DNA of 64,000 nucleotides from Oceanibaculum nanhaiense (GTDB lineage: Bacteria > Pseudomonadota > Alphaproteobacteria > Oceanibaculales > Oceanibaculaceae): positions 186,001 through 250,000 of the forward strand of contig NZ_MPOB01000001.1 of assembly GCF_002148795.1 (NCBI RefSeq). The letters are read 5' to 3'. A program made the position numbers and the translations under genes. The notes under the pieces were generated by a model that saw only the letters and a list, made by a program, of their open reading frames with translations, was not told the origin of the DNA and ran no database searches. Positions within the stretch are counted from its first letter, which is position 1; the number at the start of each line of letters is the position of its first letter. Below are positions 2,039 through 51,209 of the stretch, piece by piece.

Positions 2039-2878
2039 TCAGTCTCGATCGCTGTCACTGTCTCTGCGGTCCTGATAAAGCTGGAGAATCTCGGCGGCGG
2101 TTTCCTCAATGGAGCGGCGGGTCACGTCAATGACCGGCCAGCCCTGGCGTTCGAAGAGGCGGCGCGCCTCGGTGACCTCACGGCGCACCTCATCAAGATT
2201 GATATAGTCGCTCTCAGAGCCCTGGTTCAGCATCAGCAGGCGATTTCGCCTTATCTGCACCAGCCGGTTCGGATCGTTGGTCAGCCCGACGATCAGCGGA
2301 TGGGTTGCCGTGGTCACTTCGCGCGGCAGGCTGATCCCCGGCACCAGCGGCACGTTGGCAACCTTGAGGCCGCGATTGGCGATGTAGAGGCAGGTCGGCG
2401 TCTTGGAGGTGCGCGACACGCCGACCAGCACAATATCGGCATGATCAATATCGTGCAGATGCTGTCCATCATCATGCATCAGGGTGAACTGCATCGCCTC
2501 AATACGGCTGAAATAGGCAGCGTCCATCTCATGCTGCCGTCCTGGACGGCCACGTGCCTTTTTCCCCAGATAATGATGCAGCGCGCCCAGTACCGGATCG
2601 AGCACCGAGATCACCGGCAATTGCAGCTTGCGGCCGGCCGCCTCCAGCTTGCTGTGAAGATGCGGGTCGAGCAGCGTCACCAGGACGGGGCCGGGATGCG
2701 CCTCGATACCGGCGATCACCTTATCGACATGGGCCGGCGTGCGTACCAGGAACCAGGTATGTTCTATCGCCTTCACCCCTTCAAACTGAACGAGGCAGGC
2801 GCGGGCCACCTGATGGATCGTCTCGCCGGTGGAATCCGAGACGAGATGCAGATGAATCGTCGACTCCGAAGGCGTCAT
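2039..2878 (-). CDS. ppsR: Pyruvate, phosphate dikinase / PEP synthase regulatory protein (DUF299)
   Basis: The 279-residue protein belongs to the DUF299 family of bifunctional Ser/Thr kinases and Pi-dependent phosphorylases. They inactivate and reactivate pyruvate phosphate dikinase or PEP synthase, using ADP rather than ATP as phosphoryl donor. The P-loop-like GVSRTSKT is at residues 153-160, and the N-terminus HLHLVSDSTGET is characteristic. This gene corresponds to the RP001-type gene that flanks the Caulobacter and Rickettsia origins opposite hemE, which supports calling the gap upstream oriC. Transcription runs away from that gap. Confidence 0.93.
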   Translation of the reverse strand: MTPSESTIHLHLVSDSTGETIHQVARACLVQFEGVKAIEHTWFLVRTPAHVDKVIAGIEAHPGPVLVTLLDPHLHSKLEAAGRKLQLPVISVLDPVLGALHHYLGKKARGRPGRQHEMDAAYFSRIEAMQFTLMHDDGQHLHDIDHADIVLVGVSRTSKTPTCLYIANRGLKVANVPLVPGISLPREVTTATHPLIVGLTNDPNRLVQIRRNRLLMLNQGSESDYINLDEVRREVTEARRLFERQGWPVIDVTRRSIEETAAEILQLYQDRRDSDSDRD

Positions 2879-2917
2879 AGGGAACCCGTCACAGGCTGTG
2901 AGTATCGGTGAATCCAG

Positions 2918-2939
2918 GGGATAAGACCGGACTTATCCC
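2918..2939. repeat. 8-bp inverted repeat of DnaA-box-like half sites in oriC
   Basis: GGGATAAG and its exact reverse complement CTTATCCC are separated by six bases. Each arm contains TTATCC, the core of the DnaA box, so the element presents two diverging DnaA-like sites 40-60 bases upstream of the ppsR start. It may be a DnaA-binding element of the origin, an autoregulatory operator for ppsR, or both. Confidence 0.6.
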
Positions 2940-3174
2940 GGTGCTCGCGAAAACCATCCCGGCACCCGGTTTCCGCCACCCGGTTTTGTTCGGCTTGGGA
3001 TGAAAAATCGCACCCGTCCGGGGAAACTTTCCTGCGGTGCCGAGATTCCAATTCTATCCCCATGATTCAGATTTTTCGGGAAAGCTACTCTGTCGCCGTT
3101 AGGCTTGGAGAATCTCCGCGATGATCGATGTAACCCACAAACCGGCAGCGGGGTTAAGGTGCTGTGCCCAAGAC

Positions 3175-3183
3175 TGTGGAGAA
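3175..3183 (-). promoter_or_regulatory. DnaA-box-like nonamer (one mismatch)
   Basis: The minus strand reads TTCTCCACA, one mismatch from the consensus TTATCCACA. It lies inside the origin gap, about 40 bases from the second one-mismatch box. Confidence 0.5.
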
Positions 3184-3214
3184 ACCGGGCGGTTGCAATA
3201 ATCCCCATTCATCA

Positions 3215-3263
3215 TGCGGATAAACTACTACTACCACTATATTTTAGAATCTAGTTTAGGTAA
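3215..3263. promoter_or_regulatory. Putative origin unwinding element: DnaA box, CTA triplets, A+T-rich stretch
   Basis: The nonamer at 3215-3223 reads TTATCCGCA on the minus strand (one mismatch to consensus). One base later come three CTA triplets, then CCA and CTA (3225-3239), so the bottom strand carries repeated 3'-GAT-5' triplets. An A+T-rich stretch to 3263 follows. This resembles the DnaA-box plus DnaA-trio unwinding system described for bacterial origins. The adjacent box is in the opposite orientation to the Bacillus example as I recall it, so the match is suggestive only. Confidence 0.5.
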
Positions 3264-3300
3264 GGGAATGCGGCCCTTCCCACCTTGGCAGGAGACCATA

Positions 3301-4335
3301 ATGGCGATCACACCCGGCAAACGGATGTTACGTGCCCTCAAGGGAGAGCGCCTCGACAAACCGCCCTTCTGGCTGATGCGCCAAGCAGGAAGGTACCTGC
3401 CCGAATATCGCGAGATACGCAGCCAGGCTGGCGGATTCCTCGATCTCTGCTTCTCACCGAAGCTGGCCTGCGAAGTGACCCTCCAGCCAATCCGCCGCTA
3501 TGGCATGGACGCGGCCATCCTGTTCTCCGATATCCTGATCGTGCCCTACGGTCTGGGCCAGGGGGTCGCTTTCAAGGAAGGCGAGGGGCCAGTCCTCGAT
3601 CCGGTCCGCAACGCCAGCGATCTTTCACGCCTGTCATTGGATGGTTTTCACGAACGCGTTGCACCGGTCTATGAGACCGTTTCGCGAATTGCCGAAGCTC
3701 TGCCCAAGGAAACCACGCTGATCGGTTTCGCGGGGTCACCCTGGACGGTTGCGACCTATATCGCCGAAGGCGGCGGCAGCAAGGAATTCGTTGCCGTGAA
3801 GCGCTGGGCCTATGGCGACCCGGAAGGGTTCGGGCAGCTGATCGACCTGCTGGTCGAGGCCACTGTCAGCTATCTGAGCCATCAGGTCGAGGCCGGTGCC
3901 GAAGTATTGCAATTGTTCGACAGCTGGGCCGGCGCGCTGCCGGAGCCGGGTTTTCGGCGCTGGTGTATCGAGCCGACCATCCGTATCGTGGCCGCGTTGA
4001 AGGCAAGACATCCGGATATCCCGATTATTGGTTTTCCCCGTGGTGCCGGGACGCTTTACGTTCCCTATGCGACGGAAACGGGGATCGATGCGGTGTCGCT
4101 GGATACGACGGTTTCGGTTGCCTGGGCAGCCGAGGCGCTGCAATCGAAGCTGCCGGTACAGGGCAATCTCGATCCGATCTTGCTGGTTGCCGGCGGCGAT
4201 GCCCTGGATCGCGAGGTCGAGCGCATCCTGAGTGGTTTTTCAGGCGGCGCGCATATTTTCAATCTCGGGCATGGTGTGACCCAGACAACCCCGCCAGAAA
4301 CTGTGGAAAGGTTGGCGCGGCGTTTGCGCGCATGA
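3301..4335 (+). CDS. hemE: Uroporphyrinogen decarboxylase
   Basis: The enzyme removes the four acetate carboxyls of uroporphyrinogen III to give coproporphyrinogen III in cytoplasmic haem synthesis. The N-terminal [17 protein letters not shown] signature and the [12 protein letters not shown] segment, whose aspartate binds substrate, are both present. The frame is open from 3214. I choose the ATG at 3301 (344 residues) because AGGAG stands about eight bases upstream and the family begins here. The extra upstream codons would translate A+T-rich origin DNA. It is the first gene right of oriC and is followed by hemH and hemJ. Confidence 0.96.
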
Positions 4336-7449: not shown

Positions 7450-7465
7450 TGTTTCACGTGAAACA
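7450..7465. other. parS: parS centromere site 1
   Basis: The sequence is exactly TGTTTCACGTGAAACA, the 16-bp palindromic ParB-binding consensus shared by most bacteria. It lies in the short gap between the rho terminator and the end of the convergent oxidoreductase gene, about 4.2 kb from the origin and 9.9 kb from parB. Confidence 0.95.
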
Positions 7466-7487: not shown

Positions 7488-8462
7488 TTACGGCAGGAAC
7501 ACCGTGGACCCCGTGGTCTTGCGGGCTTCCAGATCCTGATGCGCCTTCACCACCTCCTTCAGTGGGTAGGTCTGGTTGATGTCGATCCTCACCTTGCCGG
7601 ATTTCACGACATCGAACAGATCGCTGGTGGTTGCCACCAGATCCTCGCGCTTGGCGGTATAGGTCATCAGTGTAGGCCGGGTGACGAACAGTGACCCCTT
7701 CGCCGAGAGCACGCCCAGTTCCAGCGGCGGTACATTGCCCGATGACTGGCCAAAAGCGACCATCAGACCGAGCGGCGACAGGCAGTCCAGCGACTTCATG
7801 AAGGTGTCCTTGCCAACACCGTCATAGACCACGGGAACCCCCTTGCCGCCGGTGATCTCCTTCACCCGTTCGACGAAATCCTCCTTCTTGTAGAGGATGG
7901 TATGGTGGCAGCCATGAGCCTTGGCCAGTTCGGCCTTCTTCTCATCGCCGACGGTGCCGATCACAGTGGCGCCCAGCGCGGCCGCCCATTGGCAGAGGAT
8001 GAGGCCAACGCCGCCGGCGGCGGCGTGCATCAGGATGGTGTCTCCAGCCTTTACCTTGTAGGTGCGGCGGATCAGGTACTGCGTGGTCATGCCTTTCAGC
8101 ATCATCGCGGCCGCCTGCTGATCGCTGACGCCTTCCGGAATTTTCACCAGCCGGTCAGCGGCGATGATGCGGGCTTCCGAATAGCTGCCGGGAGGGCCGG
8201 CGGCATAGGCAACGCGGTCGCCTTCCACCAGGTCCTTCACGTCGGGGCCAACGGCTTCCACGATGCCGGCGCCCTCCATGCCGATGCCGGCTGGCAGGGG
8301 CAGGGGATAGAGGCCGCTGCGGTGATAGGTGTCGATATAGTTGAGACCGACCGCGGTGTGGCGGACACGGGCCTGGCCGGGACCGGGCGCCGGCAGGTCG
8401 ATTTCCTGCCATTGCATGACTTCCGGACCGCCGGGCTGCTGGATGCGGATTGCTTGGACCAT
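7488..8462 (-). CDS. Quinone oxidoreductase family NADPH dehydrogenase (zinc-free MDR)
   Basis: The 324-residue protein is a medium-chain dehydrogenase/reductase of the Qor type. The N-terminal GroES-like half contains VGLNYIDTYHRSGLYP, and the Rossmann half carries AAAGGVGLILCQWA at about residues 148-161. Structural-zinc cysteines are absent, as in quinone reductases. It probably reduces quinones or other unsaturated carbonyls with NADPH; the substrate cannot be read from sequence. It lies 11 bases downstream of the dienelactone hydrolase gene in the same direction and is probably co-transcribed with it. Confidence 0.88.
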   Translation of the reverse strand: MVQAIRIQQPGGPEVMQWQEIDLPAPGPGQARVRHTAVGLNYIDTYHRSGLYPLPLPAGIGMEGAGIVEAVGPDVKDLVEGDRVAYAAGPPGSYSEARIIAADRLVKIPEGVSDQQAAAMMLKGMTTQYLIRRTYKVKAGDTILMHAAAGGVGLILCQWAAALGATVIGTVGDEKKAELAKAHGCHHTILYKKEDFVERVKEITGGKGVPVVYDGVGKDTFMKSLDCLSPLGLMVAFGQSSGNVPPLELGVLSAKGSLFVTRPTLMTYTAKREDLVATTSDLFDVVKSGKVRIDINQTYPLKEVVKAHQDLEARKTTGSTVFLP

Positions 8463-8473
8463 TGGGAATTTCC

Positions 8474-9169
8474 TCAGGACAGGTTGTTTTTCAGGAAGGC
8501 GGCCGTGCGCTGATGCGCCAACGTGGCCGCTTCCTTGTTGTAATGCTCGCCGCCGACCCGCGCGAAGGCGTGATCGACCTCTGGATAGACATGCGCCTCG
8601 ACGCGCGGGTGGTCTTTGAGGCCAGCCAGAATCTTGTCCTGGGCTGGTTTTGGGACGAATTTGTCAAGGGCTGCGATGTGCATGAGCAAGGGTTTCTTGA
8701 TGCTCGCGGCTTCGCCCAGCAAATCCTGAATGCCGACACCGTAATAGCTGATGTTGCAATCGGCATCGGAGCGGGTTGCCATCAGATAGGCCATCTTGCC
8801 GCCTAGGCAGAACCCCATCGTGCCAACCTTGCCGTTACTGCCATCGATAGAGCGGGCGACCTTGACCGTCTCGATGAGATCGGAAACGCCTTTTTCGACA
8901 TCGAAGCCGTTGAACAGCTCGAAGGCGCGGGCCCATTCCGCCTCGCTCTGGTCGGTAATCTGGATTCCCGGCTCCTGGCGCCAGAACAGGTCGGGACAGA
9001 TGGTGATGAAGCCATCGCTGGCGAGATCGTTGCAGATATCCCGCATCACCTCATTGACGCCGAAGATTTCCTGGATCACGACGATGATGGCTGCGGGAGT
9101 CGTTTTTGGTGTGGCCATATAGGCCATGAAGGAGCCGCCATCGGCGGCCTTGATCTTTATCTCGGGCAT
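8474..9169 (-). CDS. Dienelactone hydrolase family protein
   Basis: This 231-residue alpha/beta hydrolase has the cysteine-nucleophile elbow GFCLGG (C121), with D169 and H200 (VDHAF) completing the Cys-Asp-His triad of carboxymethylenebutenolidase. Members open lactone or ester rings. The classical role is in chloroaromatic degradation, but no other catabolic genes are nearby, so the natural substrate is unknown. A GGAGGAA-type ribosome binding site precedes the ATG. Confidence 0.88.
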   Translation of the reverse strand: MPEIKIKAADGGSFMAYMATPKTTPAAIIVVIQEIFGVNEVMRDICNDLASDGFITICPDLFWRQEPGIQITDQSEAEWARAFELFNGFDVEKGVSDLIETVKVARSIDGSNGKVGTMGFCLGGKMAYLMATRSDADCNISYYGVGIQDLLGEAASIKKPLLMHIAALDKFVPKPAQDKILAGLKDHPRVEAHVYPEVDHAFARVGGEHYNKEAATLAHQRTAAFLKNNLS

Positions 9170-9234
9170 TGGTTCCTCCGAGTTTGGACAGATGGGGAGA
9201 TCATGGCGGCTTGAGGCAAAGATTCAAGCCGCTC

Positions 9235-9729
9235 CTACAATTCCGTCATCAGGCCGGACAGCAGAGGCAGGGCGGGTGCTTCATGATCCAGCAGCCGGGC
9301 CTTGGTCTTTTTGCCGTCGCCGCCGCTGAAGCCCACCAGGGAACCGTCCTTGCCGATCACCCGGTGGCAGGGAACGATGAGGGGGATGGGATTGGCGCCG
9401 CAGGCCATTCCGACCACACGCGGGTTGGAGCCGATCCGCGCCGCGATATCGCCATAGGTCAGGGTCTCGCCATAGGGGATGGTGAGCATTTCGTGCCAGA
9501 CCGCCAGATTATGGTTTGATCCGCGCAGATCGAGCGGCAGATCGAAATCTTTCAGCTGGCGCGCGAAATAGCCGGATATCTGCCGGGCGGATTCCTGCAG
9601 GACAGGGTCGTCGCTGTGGCGCGGACCACCAGCGGCGAAACGCAATGCGCAGATGGCGCCCTGCCGCGCGGTCACGGTCATCGGGCCGACGGGGCTGTCC
9701 AGGGTGAGTTGGGCGAGGGACTCCGTCAT
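9235..9729 (-). CDS. ogt: Methylated-DNA--protein-cysteine S-methyltransferase
   Basis: The 164-residue suicide repair protein transfers the alkyl group from O6-alkylguanine or O4-alkylthymine to its own cysteine. The active-site motif IVPCHRV (cysteine near residue 122) and the upstream helix GMACGANPIP are intact. The length fits Ogt rather than the longer Ada. Its ATG overlaps the stop of the upstream DUF255 gene by four bases, indicating translational coupling. Confidence 0.94.
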   Translation of the reverse strand: MTESLAQLTLDSPVGPMTVTARQGAICALRFAAGGPRHSDDPVLQESARQISGYFARQLKDFDLPLDLRGSNHNLAVWHEMLTIPYGETLTYGDIAARIGSNPRVVGMACGANPIPLIVPCHRVIGKDGSLVGFSGGDGKKTKARLLDHEAPALPLLSGLMTEL

Positions 9730-11768
9730 GCATCGCCCCGGGCGGCCAGCAGGGCCTCGCTGAGCGCCTTTGGATCAAGCAGGGGCAGGGAACAGCTCTG
9801 ACCGACACAGAGGTACGCAGCGCTCTGCGCAGGGGCCCCCAGAGCGGCACTGGCCGGATGGTTCGGGGGTAAGCTGCCCTTGGGCCCCAGCTGATGCAGA
9901 ATGAGGCCCGGCGCGGAAATTTCAGCGATGGCGCGCAGCAGGCCGACATAGGTGGGCGTGGCCGGATCGCCGGTTAGGGTGATTTGCAGCGGGCGCTGGG
10001 CGGTATCGCAGGCATTGAGGAAGGTGGCCAGCGGGAAGAAATTGCGGCCGATCTCTCCGGCAAACCGGGGAATCAGAATATCGGCTCGTTCCCGGTATTT
10101 CTCATTTCCTGTCAGATGATAGAGGGTCGTCAGCACCTGCAACATCGTGCCATTGCCGGCGGGTACGGCATTGTCCTGGGCGTTCTTGGCGCGCAGCAAG
10201 ACATCATCGGTATCGTCCGCGGTTGCGAAATAGCCGCCATCCGCCTGATCCCAGTAATGGGTGTCCAGGGTCTCAACCCAGCTGCGGGCCTGGTCGAGGA
10301 ACCGCTGATGGCGCGTGACCTGGAACAGCGCAAGCGCGGCGGATGCCATGTTGGCATAATCCTCCAGCGTTGCCGGGTGGCGCAGGATATGGCCGCGCCG
10401 ACTGTGACGCAACCGGCCGTCGATCGTCATTTTTTCGATCACATGATCGAAGGCGCGGATCGCGACCCGCAGCCAGTCGGCATGGGCGAAAGCGAAGCTG
10501 GCATGGGCGAGCGCGCGGATCATCAGGCCGTTCCAGTCGGCCAGCACTTTATCGTCCCAGCCTGGCCGCACGCGTTTCTCGCGATGGCTGAGCAGGGTTT
10601 GGCGAAGCTGGGCGAGCTGGCTCTCCGCCGCGCCATTGCCGAGGTCAGGCCGGCGATTGCGGTGCAGGATGGTAACGCCTTCCCAGTTACCTTCCGACGT
10701 CACGTCATAGGCGCGTTTGAAACTCTCCAGGGCCTCGTCCGGCTGATCGGCCAGCAGCCGATCGATCTCCGTCTCGCGCCAGACATAGAACTTGCCTTCC
10801 TCACCCTCGCTGTCGGCATCGAGCGAGCTGGCGAAACCGCCTTCCTCGGTGACCATTTCGCGCAGCACCCAGCCGATGGTCTCTTCCAGGCGCTGCCGGA
10901 ACAAGGGCCGGCCGGTTTCCAGGGCAGCGTGAGTCAGCAATTCGATGAGCTGGGCATTGTCGTACAGCATCTTCTCGAAATGCGGGGCCAGCCATTGCGC
11001 ATCGGTGGAATAGCGGGCAAAGCCGCCGCCCAGATGATCGTAGATGCCGCCCTGGCACATGCGCTCCAGCGTGAGCAGCACATAATCGCGCGAATCGCGG
11101 TTGCCGCGGCGCAGCCAGTGCCGCCACAGCATCATCAGGATGCCGGGCTGGGGGAATTTAGGCGCCCCACCGATACCGCCATGGATCGGATCGATCTCGC
11201 GGTGCAGGCGCTCGGCGATGCGGTCGAGCAGGGCCGGTTCGACGGACTCGCCGGCGGCTGGCTGTGCGAGCTGCCGCAGCGCCTCGCGCAGGGCGGTGGC
11301 GTTGCGCGAGACCTTGTCCGAACCTTCGGCATGGGCGTCGGCGATGGTCTGCAGGACCGATGTGAAGCCCGGCCGGCCGTAACGCGGCTCTTTCGGGAAA
11401 TAGGTGCCGCCCCAGAAGGGCTCGCCCTCGGCCGTGAGGAACATGGTCAGCGGCCAGCCGCCCTGTTCGCCCAGCAGGGCGAGCGCGGACTGGTAGATGT
11501 GGTCGATGTCCGGACGCTCTTCGCGGTCCACCTTCACATTGATGAACAGCTGGTTCATCAGGGCGGCGGTTTCTTCGTCCTCGAAGCTCTCATGCGCCAT
11601 CACATGGCACCAGTGGCAGGCGGCATAGCCGACGGAGAGCAGGATCGGCTTGCCCTCAGCGCGCGCGCGGTCGAGCGCGTCGCGTCCCCATGGCATCCAA
11701 TGTACAGGGTTGTCCTTGTGCTGAAGAAGATAGGGGCTGGCTTCCTGCGCCAGAAGATTGCCGCTCAT
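9726..11768 (-). CDS. Thioredoxin domain-containing protein of the DUF255 / YyaL family
   Basis: The 680-residue protein begins with the DUF255 thioredoxin-like domain (EASPYLLQHKDNPVHWMPWG, then the CHWC redox motif near residue 50). A long alpha/alpha toroid resembling glycoside hydrolases or N-acylglucosamine epimerases follows. The family is found from bacteria to the mammalian spermatogenesis-associated SPATA20. Its biochemical role is unsettled, and I do not assign one. It is translationally coupled to ogt. Confidence 0.9.
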   Translation of the reverse strand: MSGNLLAQEASPYLLQHKDNPVHWMPWGRDALDRARAEGKPILLSVGYAACHWCHVMAHESFEDEETAALMNQLFINVKVDREERPDIDHIYQSALALLGEQGGWPLTMFLTAEGEPFWGGTYFPKEPRYGRPGFTSVLQTIADAHAEGSDKVSRNATALREALRQLAQPAAGESVEPALLDRIAERLHREIDPIHGGIGGAPKFPQPGILMMLWRHWLRRGNRDSRDYVLLTLERMCQGGIYDHLGGGFARYSTDAQWLAPHFEKMLYDNAQLIELLTHAALETGRPLFRQRLEETIGWVLREMVTEEGGFASSLDADSEGEEGKFYVWRETEIDRLLADQPDEALESFKRAYDVTSEGNWEGVTILHRNRRPDLGNGAAESQLAQLRQTLLSHREKRVRPGWDDKVLADWNGLMIRALAHASFAFAHADWLRVAIRAFDHVIEKMTIDGRLRHSRRGHILRHPATLEDYANMASAALALFQVTRHQRFLDQARSWVETLDTHYWDQADGGYFATADDTDDVLLRAKNAQDNAVPAGNGTMLQVLTTLYHLTGNEKYRERADILIPRFAGEIGRNFFPLATFLNACDTAQRPLQITLTGDPATPTYVGLLRAIAEISAPGLILHQLGPKGSLPPNHPASAALGAPAQSAAYLCVGQSCSLPLLDPKALSEALLAARGDA

Positions 11769-11938
11769 CTGTGGCCTTTCCCGCCTGCTGTGCCCGGTAT
11801 AGGGTTGATATCGGCTTGGCAGAGCCAGTCTTAATGGTTGGCCGTTACAGGCTTGAGTTCAAGTCCGCACAGTCTGAGGGGCGGATGATGGCAGCGCAGG
11901 GCGATTTAATCGTTACGTAAGCGGTATATGAGGCGCCG

Positions 11939-12202
11939 ATGAAGATCACGGTCAATATCGATTGTACACCGGAAGAGGCGCGGCGCTTCTTCGGGCTGCC
12001 CGATGTCCAGCCGATGCAGGAGGCCGTGATGGCCGAAATGCAGGAGCGGCTGCTCGGCGGCATCAAGCAGATGGATCCGGACGCCATGCTGAAGAGCTGG
12101 TTCCAGGGAGTGCCCGGTGGTATGGCCTCCATGGAGGCGCTTCAGAAGATGTTCTGGAGTCAGTTCGGCGACAGCGGAAACAAGGGAGAAAAGCCAGAGT
12201 GA
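11939..12202 (+). CDS. Small DUF6489-type protein of unknown function
   Basis: This 87-residue acidic protein has a conserved-looking N-terminus (MKITVNIDCTPEEARRFFGLPDV) and a helical, glycine-containing C-terminal half with no membrane segment. I recognise the pattern as the alphaproteobacterial DUF6489 family, which has no known function. Its TGA stop overlaps the GTG start of the next gene (GTGA), so the two products are translated together. The 170-base gap upstream contains the palindrome CTTGAGTTCAAG at 11852-11863 and no further gene. Confidence 0.75.
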   Translation: MKITVNIDCTPEEARRFFGLPDVQPMQEAVMAEMQERLLGGIKQMDPDAMLKSWFQGVPGGMASMEALQKMFWSQFGDSGNKGEKPE

Positions 12203-12582
12203 CCGATATCTCGACCGGAATTGCTGATAAGAATCAAGAGGACTTCGAGTCGTACTACCGCTGCCATGTTTTCTGCTGCACGAATCGCAGACCCGATGGC
12301 CACAAGCGCGGTTCCTGCGCGGCGAGCGGTTCCGAACCGCTGCGTGCCTATATGAAGGCGCGCGCCAAGGAACTCGCCATACCCGGTGTCCGGATCAACA
12401 ATGCCGGCTGTCTCGACCGCTGCGAGCTGGGGCCAGTGCTGGTGATCTATCCGGAAGGCGTCTGGTACAAATATCAGACACAGGCGGATATCGATGAAAT
12501 TCTGACCGTGCATCTGCGCGATGGCGGACGCGTGGCGCGTCTGATGCTGCGCCCGGAAGACGGGCCAGACCAGGCGGGCTGA
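12199..12582 (+). CDS. Thioredoxin-like [2Fe-2S] ferredoxin
   Basis: From a GTG start overlapping the previous stop this gives 127 residues. Six cysteines (C22, C26, C27, C40, C71, C75) include the C-x12-C and C-x3-C spacing of thioredoxin-fold [2Fe-2S] ferredoxins, with GCLDRCELGPVLVIYPEG as the clearest signature. Such proteins carry electrons or act as redox sensors. The partner is unknown, but the coupled DUF6489 protein is a candidate. An open frame continues upstream to 11962, but there it only shadows the DUF6489 gene. Confidence 0.85.
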   Translation: MTDISTGIADKNQEDFESYYRCHVFCCTNRRPDGHKRGSCAASGSEPLRAYMKARAKELAIPGVRINNAGCLDRCELGPVLVIYPEGVWYKYQTQADIDEILTVHLRDGGRVARLMLRPEDGPDQAG

Positions 12583-12607
12583 CCGCACTTACCGTAACGG
12601 CCCAATC

Positions 12608-13974: not shown

Positions 13975-13990
13975 TGTTTCACGTGAAACA
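13975..13990. other. parS: parS centromere site 2
   Basis: A perfect TGTTTCACGTGAAACA lies in the 87-base gap between mnmE and mnmG, about 3.4 kb upstream of parB. It should bind ParB and contribute to the partition complex near the origin. Confidence 0.95.
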
Positions 13991-15916: not shown

Positions 15917-16547
15917 TCGGGAGCAGGGCGTTTTGACAGCTGAGGACGTTCGGGCGGCCACGGATGTTTCACGTGAAACACTGATCCGCCTCGAGGCCTA
16001 TGTCGATTTGCTCGCCAAATGGCAAAAGGCAGTCAATCTGGTCGGCCCCAGCACGCTAAAAGATGTCTGGCGTCGCCATATCCTCGATTCCCTTCAGCTT
16101 ATGCCGTATAGTCCAGAACAGAGTGCTTCCGCGCTCGATCTTGGAAGCGGGGCCGGATTGCCGGGACTTATCCTGGCAATCGCAGGAGTGAAGGGGATGA
16201 CGCTGGTCGAATCGGATGCGCGTAAGGTTGCCTTCCTGCGGGAGGCGACCCGGGTGACCGAGACGGAACTGGAAGTCTTTCATGGCCGGATCGAGACGCT
16301 CCCGGCCCGGAAAGTGGATCTGGTAACCGCCCGCGCCCTGACATCCGTGGCCGGACTCCTCGGCTATACTTGGCCATACCTACAGCCTGGGGGGCGCTGT
16401 CTGTTCCTGAAGGGCAGGGGCGTCGATGATGAGCTGAAAGCGGCAGAATCGCTTTGGGAAATGCGGGTCACCAAATATCCCAGCCGGACCGCGCCGGACG
16501 GGGTGATCCTTCAACTGGAGGGCATACGTCATGTTGGAGATGCTTGA
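15894..16547 (+). CDS. rsmG: 16S rRNA (guanine(527)-N(7))-methyltransferase
   Basis: The 217-residue SAM-dependent enzyme methylates N7 of G527 in 16S rRNA. The SAM-binding motif [11 protein letters not shown] lies near residues 80-90. The start at 15894 overlaps mnmG; a TTG at 15907 is an alternative. Residues D24 to T29 (DVSRET) are encoded by a perfect parS site, so the sequence serves two purposes. The end overlaps parA by 17 bases, consistent with one operon. Confidence 0.94.
15965..15980. other. parS: parS centromere site 3, inside rsmG
   Basis: A perfect TGTTTCACGTGAAACA is embedded in the coding sequence of rsmG, where it encodes most of DVSRET. It is the parS site closest to parAB, about 1.4 kb upstream of parB. 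Confidence 0.95.
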
Positions 16548-17358
16548 CGAGTCTGAGTCGCTGGTCGCGATGGTTCAGGATGGGCCGCGTATCATTTCCG
16601 TGGTCAATCAGAAGGGCGGGGTCGGCAAGACGACGACCACGATCAACCTGGGTACGGCGCTCGCCGCTTGCGGCAAGACGGTTCTGTTGATCGATCTCGA
16701 CCCGCAGGGCAATGCCTCCACCGGCCTTGGCATTCCGCGGGCCGCACGGGAGCAAGACATCTATGCCGTGATTTGTGATGGGCTCGATATCGGGGCTGCG
16801 GTGACGCCGACCGTGATTCCGGGCATGTCCATCGTGCCGTCGTCGGTCAATCTGTCCGGTGCGGAAATCGAGCTGGTGAATTTCGAGCGCCGGGAATACC
16901 GCATGCAGGAAGCGCTGACCGGCCTCACCGAGAGCTTCGATTATGTCCTGATCGACTGCCCGCCCTCGCTCGGGCTGCTTACCCTGAATGCGCTGGTTGC
17001 CTCGGATGCGGTTCTGGTGCCGCTGCAGTGCGAATTCTATGCGCTGGAAGGGCTCAGCCATCTGCTGAATACGATCAAGCGGGTGAAGAAGAATCTGAAC
17101 CCGCGGCTGGAAATTCAGGGCGTGGTGCTCACCATGTTCGACCGCCGCAACAACCTCTCGGAAGCGGTGGCGGCCGATGTGCGCGGCCATCTGGGCGACA
17201 AGGTCTACACCACCGTGATTCCGCGCAATGTGCGGATTTCAGAAGCGCCGTCGCACGGCAAGCCGGTCATCGTCTATGACATGCGCTGCCCGGGCGCGCA
17301 GGCCTATATCCATTTGGCCAGCGAAGTAATGAAACGCGAACGGAGCCTGGCCGCCTGA
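16531..17358 (+). CDS. parA: Chromosome partitioning ATPase ParA
   Basis: The 275-residue ATPase has the deviant Walker A motif KGGVGKTT at residues 28-35 and a Walker B-like VLIDCPPSLGLL near 135. ParA dimers bind nucleoid DNA and pull ParB-parS complexes apart as ATP is hydrolysed. An internal ATG at 16570 would remove 13 poorly conserved residues and cannot be excluded as the start. The stop overlaps the parB ATG by one base. Confidence 0.96.
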   Translation: MLEMLDESESLVAMVQDGPRIISVVNQKGGVGKTTTTINLGTALAACGKTVLLIDLDPQGNASTGLGIPRAAREQDIYAVICDGLDIGAAVTPTVIPGMSIVPSSVNLSGAEIELVNFERREYRMQEALTGLTESFDYVLIDCPPSLGLLTLNALVASDAVLVPLQCEFYALEGLSHLLNTIKRVKKNLNPRLEIQGVVLTMFDRRNNLSEAVAADVRGHLGDKVYTTVIPRNVRISEAPSHGKPVIVYDMRCPGAQAYIHLASEVMKRERSLAA

Positions 17359-18398
17359 TGGCACGCGAAAAGAGACAGAATCTGGGGCGGGGCCTCGACG
17401 CGCTGCTGGGCGAGGACAGCGAGGATTATGCCGAGCTCGACAAGGTGCGGCAGGGCAAGACCGCGCCGATCGAGTATCTGGAGCCGGGACCGTTTCAGCC
17501 GCGCCGACTGTTCGCCGCCGAGGAGATGGAATCGCTGATCGATTCGATCCGTGACAAGGGCGTGCTGCAGCCCATCCTGGTCCGCCGGCACCCGTCCGAT
17601 CCGACGCGCTACCAGATTATCGCCGGAGAGCGGCGCTGGCGCGCGGCGCAGGCGGCGCAACTGCATGAAGTTCCGGTCGTTATCCGCGAATTCGACGACC
17701 GCGAGGCGCTGGAAGTCGCGCTGGTCGAGAATATCCAGCGCCAGGACCTGACCCCCATCGAGGAGGCCGAAGGCTATCGGCGGCTGATGGAGGAATTTGG
17801 TCATACCCAGGAGGCGCTGGCGCAGGTCATCGGCAAGAGCCGCAGCCATATCGCCAATATGCTGCGTCTGCTGGGGCTACCGGTTGCGGTGCGTGAAGCC
17901 GTGGAAGAAGGCAAGATCAGCGCCGGTCATGCCCGGGCGCTGCTGGTCGTGCCGAACAGCGAAAACCTGCTGGGGCAGGTCATCGCCAAGGGGCTCAGCG
18001 TCCGCGATACGGAAAAGCTGGTGCAGCGGGCGAAAGCGCCGGAAACCGACGATGCCGAGGGCACGGCCGCAGCGGACGGGCCGAAGCGCCGCAAGGCATC
18101 GGCGCGCGAGAAGGACACCGATACGCTGGCCCTGGAGCGCGATTTGTCTGCCCTGTTGGGACTGACGGTCAGCATCGATTTCAGGCCTGGTCAGGGTGGG
18201 GTGCTGTCCATCGAATATCGCACGCTCGAACAGCTCGACGATGTGCTGTCGCGCCTGAGCCGCGGCGGACGCCAGCCCGATGTTGAAGGTGAGGAGGCGG
18301 GGGAAGGTTTCGGCGAAGATGCCATGATGGCCTCATTCGACCCCGAGGATCCGTTGATACCCGACACTGAAGAAGAACCGGAAGAGCCGCAAGGCTGA
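17358..18398 (+). CDS. parB: Chromosome partitioning protein ParB (CTPase centromere-binding protein)
   Basis: The 346-residue protein has the basic N-terminal [14 protein letters not shown] ParA-stimulating segment. The CTP-binding ParB domain with [11 protein letters not shown] lies near residues 90-100, the helix-turn-helix ([21 protein letters not shown]) at about 147-170, and a C-terminal dimer domain is followed by an acidic tail rich in Glu. It loads at parS and spreads as a CTP-dependent clamp. Three perfect parS sites are visible in this window. Confidence 0.97.

Positions 18399-50027: not shown

Positions 50028-51209
<1,182 letters not shown>

Follow-up and report, generated by a model that had tools for sequence, protein, structure and literature searches.

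A very probable chromosomal replication origin in the ppsR-hemE gap of Oceanibaculum nanhaiense, with a candidate opening element shared across Alphaproteobacteria

Where does the chromosome of Oceanibaculum nanhaiense begin to replicate? In many bacteria, the origin lies beside mnmG/gidA or dnaA. The window studied here is the whole analyzed stretch of 64,000 nucleotides (C1:186001-250000) within C1, a 628-kb contig of a 3.84-Mb genome assembled in 40 contigs. It contains a 422-bp gap between divergent ppsR and hemE genes, at positions 2879 to 3300 (C1:188879-189300), and a sequence-only reading had called this gap the chromosomal replication origin. That call was borne out by a switch in GC skew, the gene context, the position of parS and parAB, the density of DnaA boxes, and a class-wide unwinding-type element. 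Judged from its sequence, the gap is very probably oriC, an origin of the hemE-ppsR type already described in Caulobacter and Rickettsia.

The two flanking genes had been named correctly, as both exceed curated NCBIfam cutoffs.

2039 to 2878, minus strand: ppsR (COG1806, RP001 type), left flank of the gap; NCBIfam PRK05339.1, 336.7 bits, cutoff 225
3301 to 4335, plus strand: hemE, right flank of the gap; NCBIfam TIGR01464.1, 405 bits, cutoff 303

The PpsR protein is 86% identical to that of Oceanibaculum pacificum, the closest named genome, and the ppsR-hemE pair, with a gap of 0.3 to 0.7 kb, was found again in most relatives examined. Farther left, a family search placed dnaQ and coaE over their cutoffs and a Maf-like gene below its own; to the right lie hemE, hemH, rho, mnmE, mnmG, parA, and parB. 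The published Caulobacter and Rickettsia origins are located between the same two genes, hemE and the COG1806/RP001 gene (PMC1914354), the context that the sequence-only reading had recognized, and marker frequency in Hyphomonas neptunium peaks close to hemE (PMC6650430). The further claim that gene directions diverge from the gap holds only nearby: four genes on the left read leftward and four on the right read rightward, but the block at 7488-12588 reads leftward again. Crude open reading frame calls gave no strand bias over C1, and this line of evidence was uninformative. The open frame of hemE could begin earlier, at an ATG at 3214 within the unwinding region; we prefer the start at 3301, which follows a plausible ribosome site, AGGAGA.

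GC skew was computed over all of C1 and C7 and over samples of the other contigs. Across all 628 kb of C1, its sign is negative to the left of about 186 kb and positive to the right. The cumulative minimum lies at C1:186321 (window position 321), 2.6 kb to the left of the gap that had been proposed for it, and skew cannot place an origin to the base. A two-segment fit gave a change-point at 185.0 kb, and the 2-unit support interval, 182 to 190 kb, takes in the gap; the gap position itself is 1.5 log-likelihood units below the best. None of 1,000 block shuffles matched the strength of the switch. The sequence-only reading had named cumulative skew as a check, and the outcome favors its call. 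The loci that had been named as competitors do not fit, being worse by 22 (mnmG/parS), 28 (parAB), and 66 (dnaA) log units; dnaA, at C1:299.7 kb, lies 111 kb from the gap. Sampled stretches of contigs C2 to C6 showed one skew sign each. Sampling of the complete genomes of two relatives, G012 and G170, showed that skew turns from negative to positive between the stretches flanking the hemE gap and from positive to negative about halfway round. Motifs of FtsK polarity (KOPS-like) were too sparse on the left side of the gap to be of use. Separately, C7:1-13375 has a skew opposite to that of the rest of its contig, perhaps through an inversion, a mobile island, or a misjoin. The resulting second negative-to-positive change was rejected as an origin, as it marks a 13-kb contig end and C7 has no parS and no match to the BUS-type element described below.

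The segregation genes and sites were also located close to the gap, in line with the earlier claim.

7450 to 7465: perfect parS, exact match to TGTTTCACGTGAAACA
13975 to 13990: perfect parS, exact match to TGTTTCACGTGAAACA
15965 to 15980: perfect parS, exact match to TGTTTCACGTGAAACA
16531 to 17358, plus strand: parA, matched by ParA-type ATPase models, none over its own cutoff; adjoins parB
17358 to 18398, plus strand: parB; TIGR00180, 209 bits, cutoff 58

These three copies of TGTTTCACGTGAAACA are the only ones in the whole assembly, all lie 4 to 13 kb to the right of the gap, and none is expected in shuffles of the window. Their location is what could place the origin in another gap close by, between mnmE and mnmG or beside parAB; the skew fit, 22 to 28 log units worse there, and the lack of a second BUS match in the genome make this extremely improbable. 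Elsewhere in the assembly, contigs C10 (110 kb) and C16 (36 kb) are likely plasmids: both have ParB-like matches and a lower GC content, which is about 0.60 over their first 10 kb.

The motifs of the ppsR-hemE gap, and a methylase gene elsewhere in the window, are listed here.

2916 to 2924, minus strand: DnaA-box-like TTATCCCCT; GGGGATAA is conserved in four of four genus members
2933 to 2941, plus strand: weak DnaA-box-like TTATCCCGG, from the box scan
3054 to 3062, plus strand: DnaA-box-like CTATCCCCA with the W-box core TCCCCA (consensus from PMC4285127); TCCCC is conserved in the genus
3055 to 3067, minus strand: candidate IHF site AATCATGGGGATA, overlapping a box; exact WATCAN5WTR (consensus from PMC1914354)
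3131 to 3139, plus strand: DnaA-box-like TAACCCACA; CCACA is conserved in the genus
3175 to 3183, minus strand: DnaA-box-like TTCTCCACA, one mismatch, from the box scan
3215 to 3223, minus strand: DnaA-box-like TTATCCGCA, one mismatch, within the BUS spacer, from the box scan
3197 to 3256: A+T-rich stretch, presumed DNA unwinding element, 32% GC
2910 to 2914, 3044 to 3048, 3064 to 3068, 3110 to 3114, and 3247 to 3251: GANTC sites 1 to 5, from the motif scan
50103 to 51209, plus strand: CcrM-type adenine methylase, likely the GANTC methylase (N6_N4_Mtase and RAMA)

The sequence-only reading had described imperfect DnaA boxes, five GANTC sites, and an A+T-rich stretch, with no perfect TTATCCACA, and each of these observations was reproduced. 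Compared with TTATCCACA, the gap has no perfect box, two boxes with one mismatch (3175-3183 and 3215-3223), and six with at most two. These counts are reached by 0.07% (one mismatch) and 0.045% (at most two) of 422-bp segments of C1, for which the mean number of boxes within two mismatches is 0.47. With C allowed at position 7 (TTATCCMCA), there are five boxes with at most one mismatch and nine with at most two, and no other 422-bp segment of C1 reaches either count. TCCCCA, known as the weak W-box in Caulobacter (PMC4285127), is present in two boxes. The Caulobacter origin is described as relying on weak boxes, stronger ones being located at promoters elsewhere (PMC4468827). The gap is 52.8% GC, compared with 65.8% for C1, and the stretch at 3197-3256 is its lowest-GC 60-bp segment, within the lowest 0.12% of C1. 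The single exact match to the IHF consensus compares with about 0.1 expected by chance, by our own estimate. Five GANTC sites per 422 bp are reached by 0.29% of C1 segments; together with the CcrM-type methylase, they fit cell-cycle methylation, to which they lend weak support because counts in relatives vary from 0 to 5. No match to GcrA was found in the genome, and both the paired CtrA site TTAA-N7-TTAA and the G-box TGATCCACA are absent from the gap. A review denies CtrA sites to alphaproteobacterial origins outside Caulobacter, Rickettsia possibly excepted (PMC4468827), and such sites are therefore not required for a hemE-type oriC.

It had also been warned that programs looking for strict boxes could miss this origin, and the warning was apt: the densest cluster of near-perfect TTATCCACA boxes in C1 precedes sdhC, at C1:314.04-314.46 kb, and is separated from dnaA by 13 kb. 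With the most boxes of at most one mismatch in C1 (four in 422 bp), an A+T-rich block beside it, and a form recognizable in the genus, this cluster could be proposed as the origin instead, but it shows no skew switch (70 log units worse), has no parS nearby and no BUS match, and is absent from most relatives. Skew, parS, BUS match, and conservation all count against it, and we give it next to no credence. As an observation in its own right, the cluster (C1:314041-314462; L018:14041-14462), which precedes sdhCDAB, holds an inverted box pair, TTATCCACC/TGTGGATAA, in four of four Oceanibaculum genomes, and possibly serves DnaA control of sdh or DnaA titration.

The sequence-only reading overlooked a candidate opening element in the ppsR-hemE gap, a box 17 bp before a run of CTA-trios, which has the form of a DnaA-trio element of the basal unwinding system (BUS).

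3199 to 3207, plus strand: BUS DnaA box TAATCCCCA; TAATCCCC is invariant in the genus
3225 to 3239, minus strand: DnaA-trios, CTA CTA CTA CCA CTA on the plus strand, equal to 3'-GAT GAT GAT GGT GAT-5'
3198 to 3249 (C1:189198-189249), plus strand: match to model R1, E value 6e-5

Since the plus strand reads CTA CTA CTA CCA CTA, the lower strand matches the DnaA-trio consensus, with four GAT trios of five. The box has two mismatches to TTATCCACA, within the BUS limit of two. Its distance of 17 bp from the trios compares with a published limit of one less, 16 bp (PMC8287927), although the published rule may permit longer layouts with tandem boxes. The run at 3225-3239 is the sole one in C1 with at least four CTA in five in-phase triplets. 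A combined box-spacer-trio score, devised after the sequences had been seen, was 15 at the gap, and the runner-up among 1,844 boxes in C1 scored 9. An alignment of four Oceanibaculum species showed the strongest conservation in the part of the gap next to hemE, in the order AATAATCCCC, a ACTACTACTACCACTAT-like run, and A+T-rich DNA. Across lineages, the layout is a box, a second box (TTCCACA-like), a few bases, trios, and A+T-rich DNA; the second tandem box is degenerate in Oceanibaculum.

Because the score had been devised after the fact, an independent test was made with R1, a 63-bp sequence-only DNA model built without Oceanibaculum DNA and without coding sequence from the aligned corresponding 61 to 62 bp of ten gaps outside the genus. 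In the whole 3.84-Mb Oceanibaculum genome, the match listed above was the only one, even at an E value of ≤10. Among 190 sampled Alphaproteobacteria genomes, 29 of the best 30 matches immediately preceded hemE, and 19 or more of these came from genomes outside the training set; for 3 of the 29, the stretch fetched contained no ppsR. The 30th (L210, in the 0.8-Mb alphaproteobacterial genome G135) has no hemE and lies between a gene that we take, from its translated sequence, to be fabI and an array at the contig end. That array consists of 10.9 perfect tandem copies of the DnaA-box-like GTTATGCACAG and runs off the contig. The BUS-like element itself reads TTATGCACA-G-TTTGCACAG-GCC-CTACAACTACTACCT, followed by TTTTATATA. 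Taken together, the locus (L210:1490-1772) resembles an origin that has been displaced and adjoins an iteron-like array. Its position away from hemE speaks for R1 detecting a DnaA element rather than a hemE promoter.

The last point bears on whether the gap is only a divergent ppsR/hemE promoter region, with the element at 3199-3250 serving hemE as promoter or leader and the origin located nearby. A divergent gap must contain promoters, and in most genomes the conserved element is about 100 bp before hemE. We nevertheless regard this as very unlikely, given that the element is a DnaA-box plus DnaA-trio sequence at a spacing of 16 to 17 bp, that it recurs without hemE beside fabI and the GTTATGCACAG array, and that its position matches the skew switch, both in Oceanibaculum and in the two relatives with complete genomes. 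It may have a promoter role in addition to its role in the origin, which remains our reading of the gap.

By analogy with the BUS model (PMC6669920, PMC8287927), DnaA would load on boxes scattered across the gap, most of them weak. Starting at the conserved box TAATCCCCA, it would extend onto the lower strand at 3225-3239 and stretch the trios, and the A+T-rich stretch would open from 3225 to about 3260. Loading of two helicases could follow, with one fork moving into ppsR/maf/coaE/dnaQ and the other into hemE/hemH/rho/parAB. ParB bound to the three parS sites would segregate the new origins, and GANTC methylation by the CcrM-type enzyme would probably report the replication state. Of this picture, the skew switch, the set of motifs with its rarity, and the conservation are observed; the binding of DnaA, the opening at the trios, the firing in both directions, and the control by methylation are inferred.

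Known systems resemble this arrangement to different degrees. The Cori of Caulobacter crescentus has the same flanking genes, in its hemE-COG1806 gap (PMC1914354), and mostly weak boxes that include the W-box core TCCCCA (PMC4285127, PMC4468827), and Caulobacter shares a CcrM-type enzyme with Oceanibaculum. However, Cori has G-boxes and five CtrA sites, which the Oceanibaculum gap lacks; CTA-type trios, clear in Oceanibaculum, are weak in the Caulobacter gaps scored; and the GcrA of Caulobacter has no counterpart found in Oceanibaculum. The Rickettsia prowazekii origin (hemE-RP001) shares the gene pair and a similar gap size (383 to 396 bp in Rickettsia; PMC1914354), but Rickettsia gaps are about 82% A+T, compared with 47% in Oceanibaculum. 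In Hyphomonas neptunium, the origin is likewise near hemE, and parAB and parS lie some 7 kb from it (PMC6650430), but it was mapped by marker frequency, whereas that of Oceanibaculum is deduced from sequence. The BUS of Bacillus subtilis and others also has a DnaA box, a short spacer, and repeated 3'-GAT-5' trios (PMC8287927), and the orientation is that of the Clostridioides difficile trio CTACTACTATTACTACTA, whose boxes are immediately upstream (PMC7561715). Unlike these, Oceanibaculum has a weak box, a tandem partner that has decayed in the genus, and a 17-bp spacer.

Origins of the hemE type are textbook knowledge. As, in addition, BUS sequences have been predicted in 85% of 2,070 origins (PMC8287927), the Oceanibaculum origin belongs to a known kind. 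The new part is possibly the class-wide element of fixed spacing and its use as an origin finder; the searched texts of the main BUS papers make no mention of Alphaproteobacteria or Caulobacter. On balance, we favor the view that a single ancestral opening element is common to hemE-type origins throughout Alphaproteobacteria, with a weak box like TAATCCCCA, a partner of the TTCCACA type, and CTA-trios in fixed spacing, and that the 63-bp model would suffice to find the origin in genomes in which skew or strict boxes fail, among them genomes whose origin has moved from hemE. For Oceanibaculum, the replication origin would be fixed, with the box at 3199-3207 and the trios at 3225-3239 as base-level targets in experiments on the opening of an alphaproteobacterial origin with weak boxes. 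As the class-wide model suggests, a single mechanism may underlie both the published "weak box" origin of the Caulobacter type and the unwinding system of the Bacillus type.
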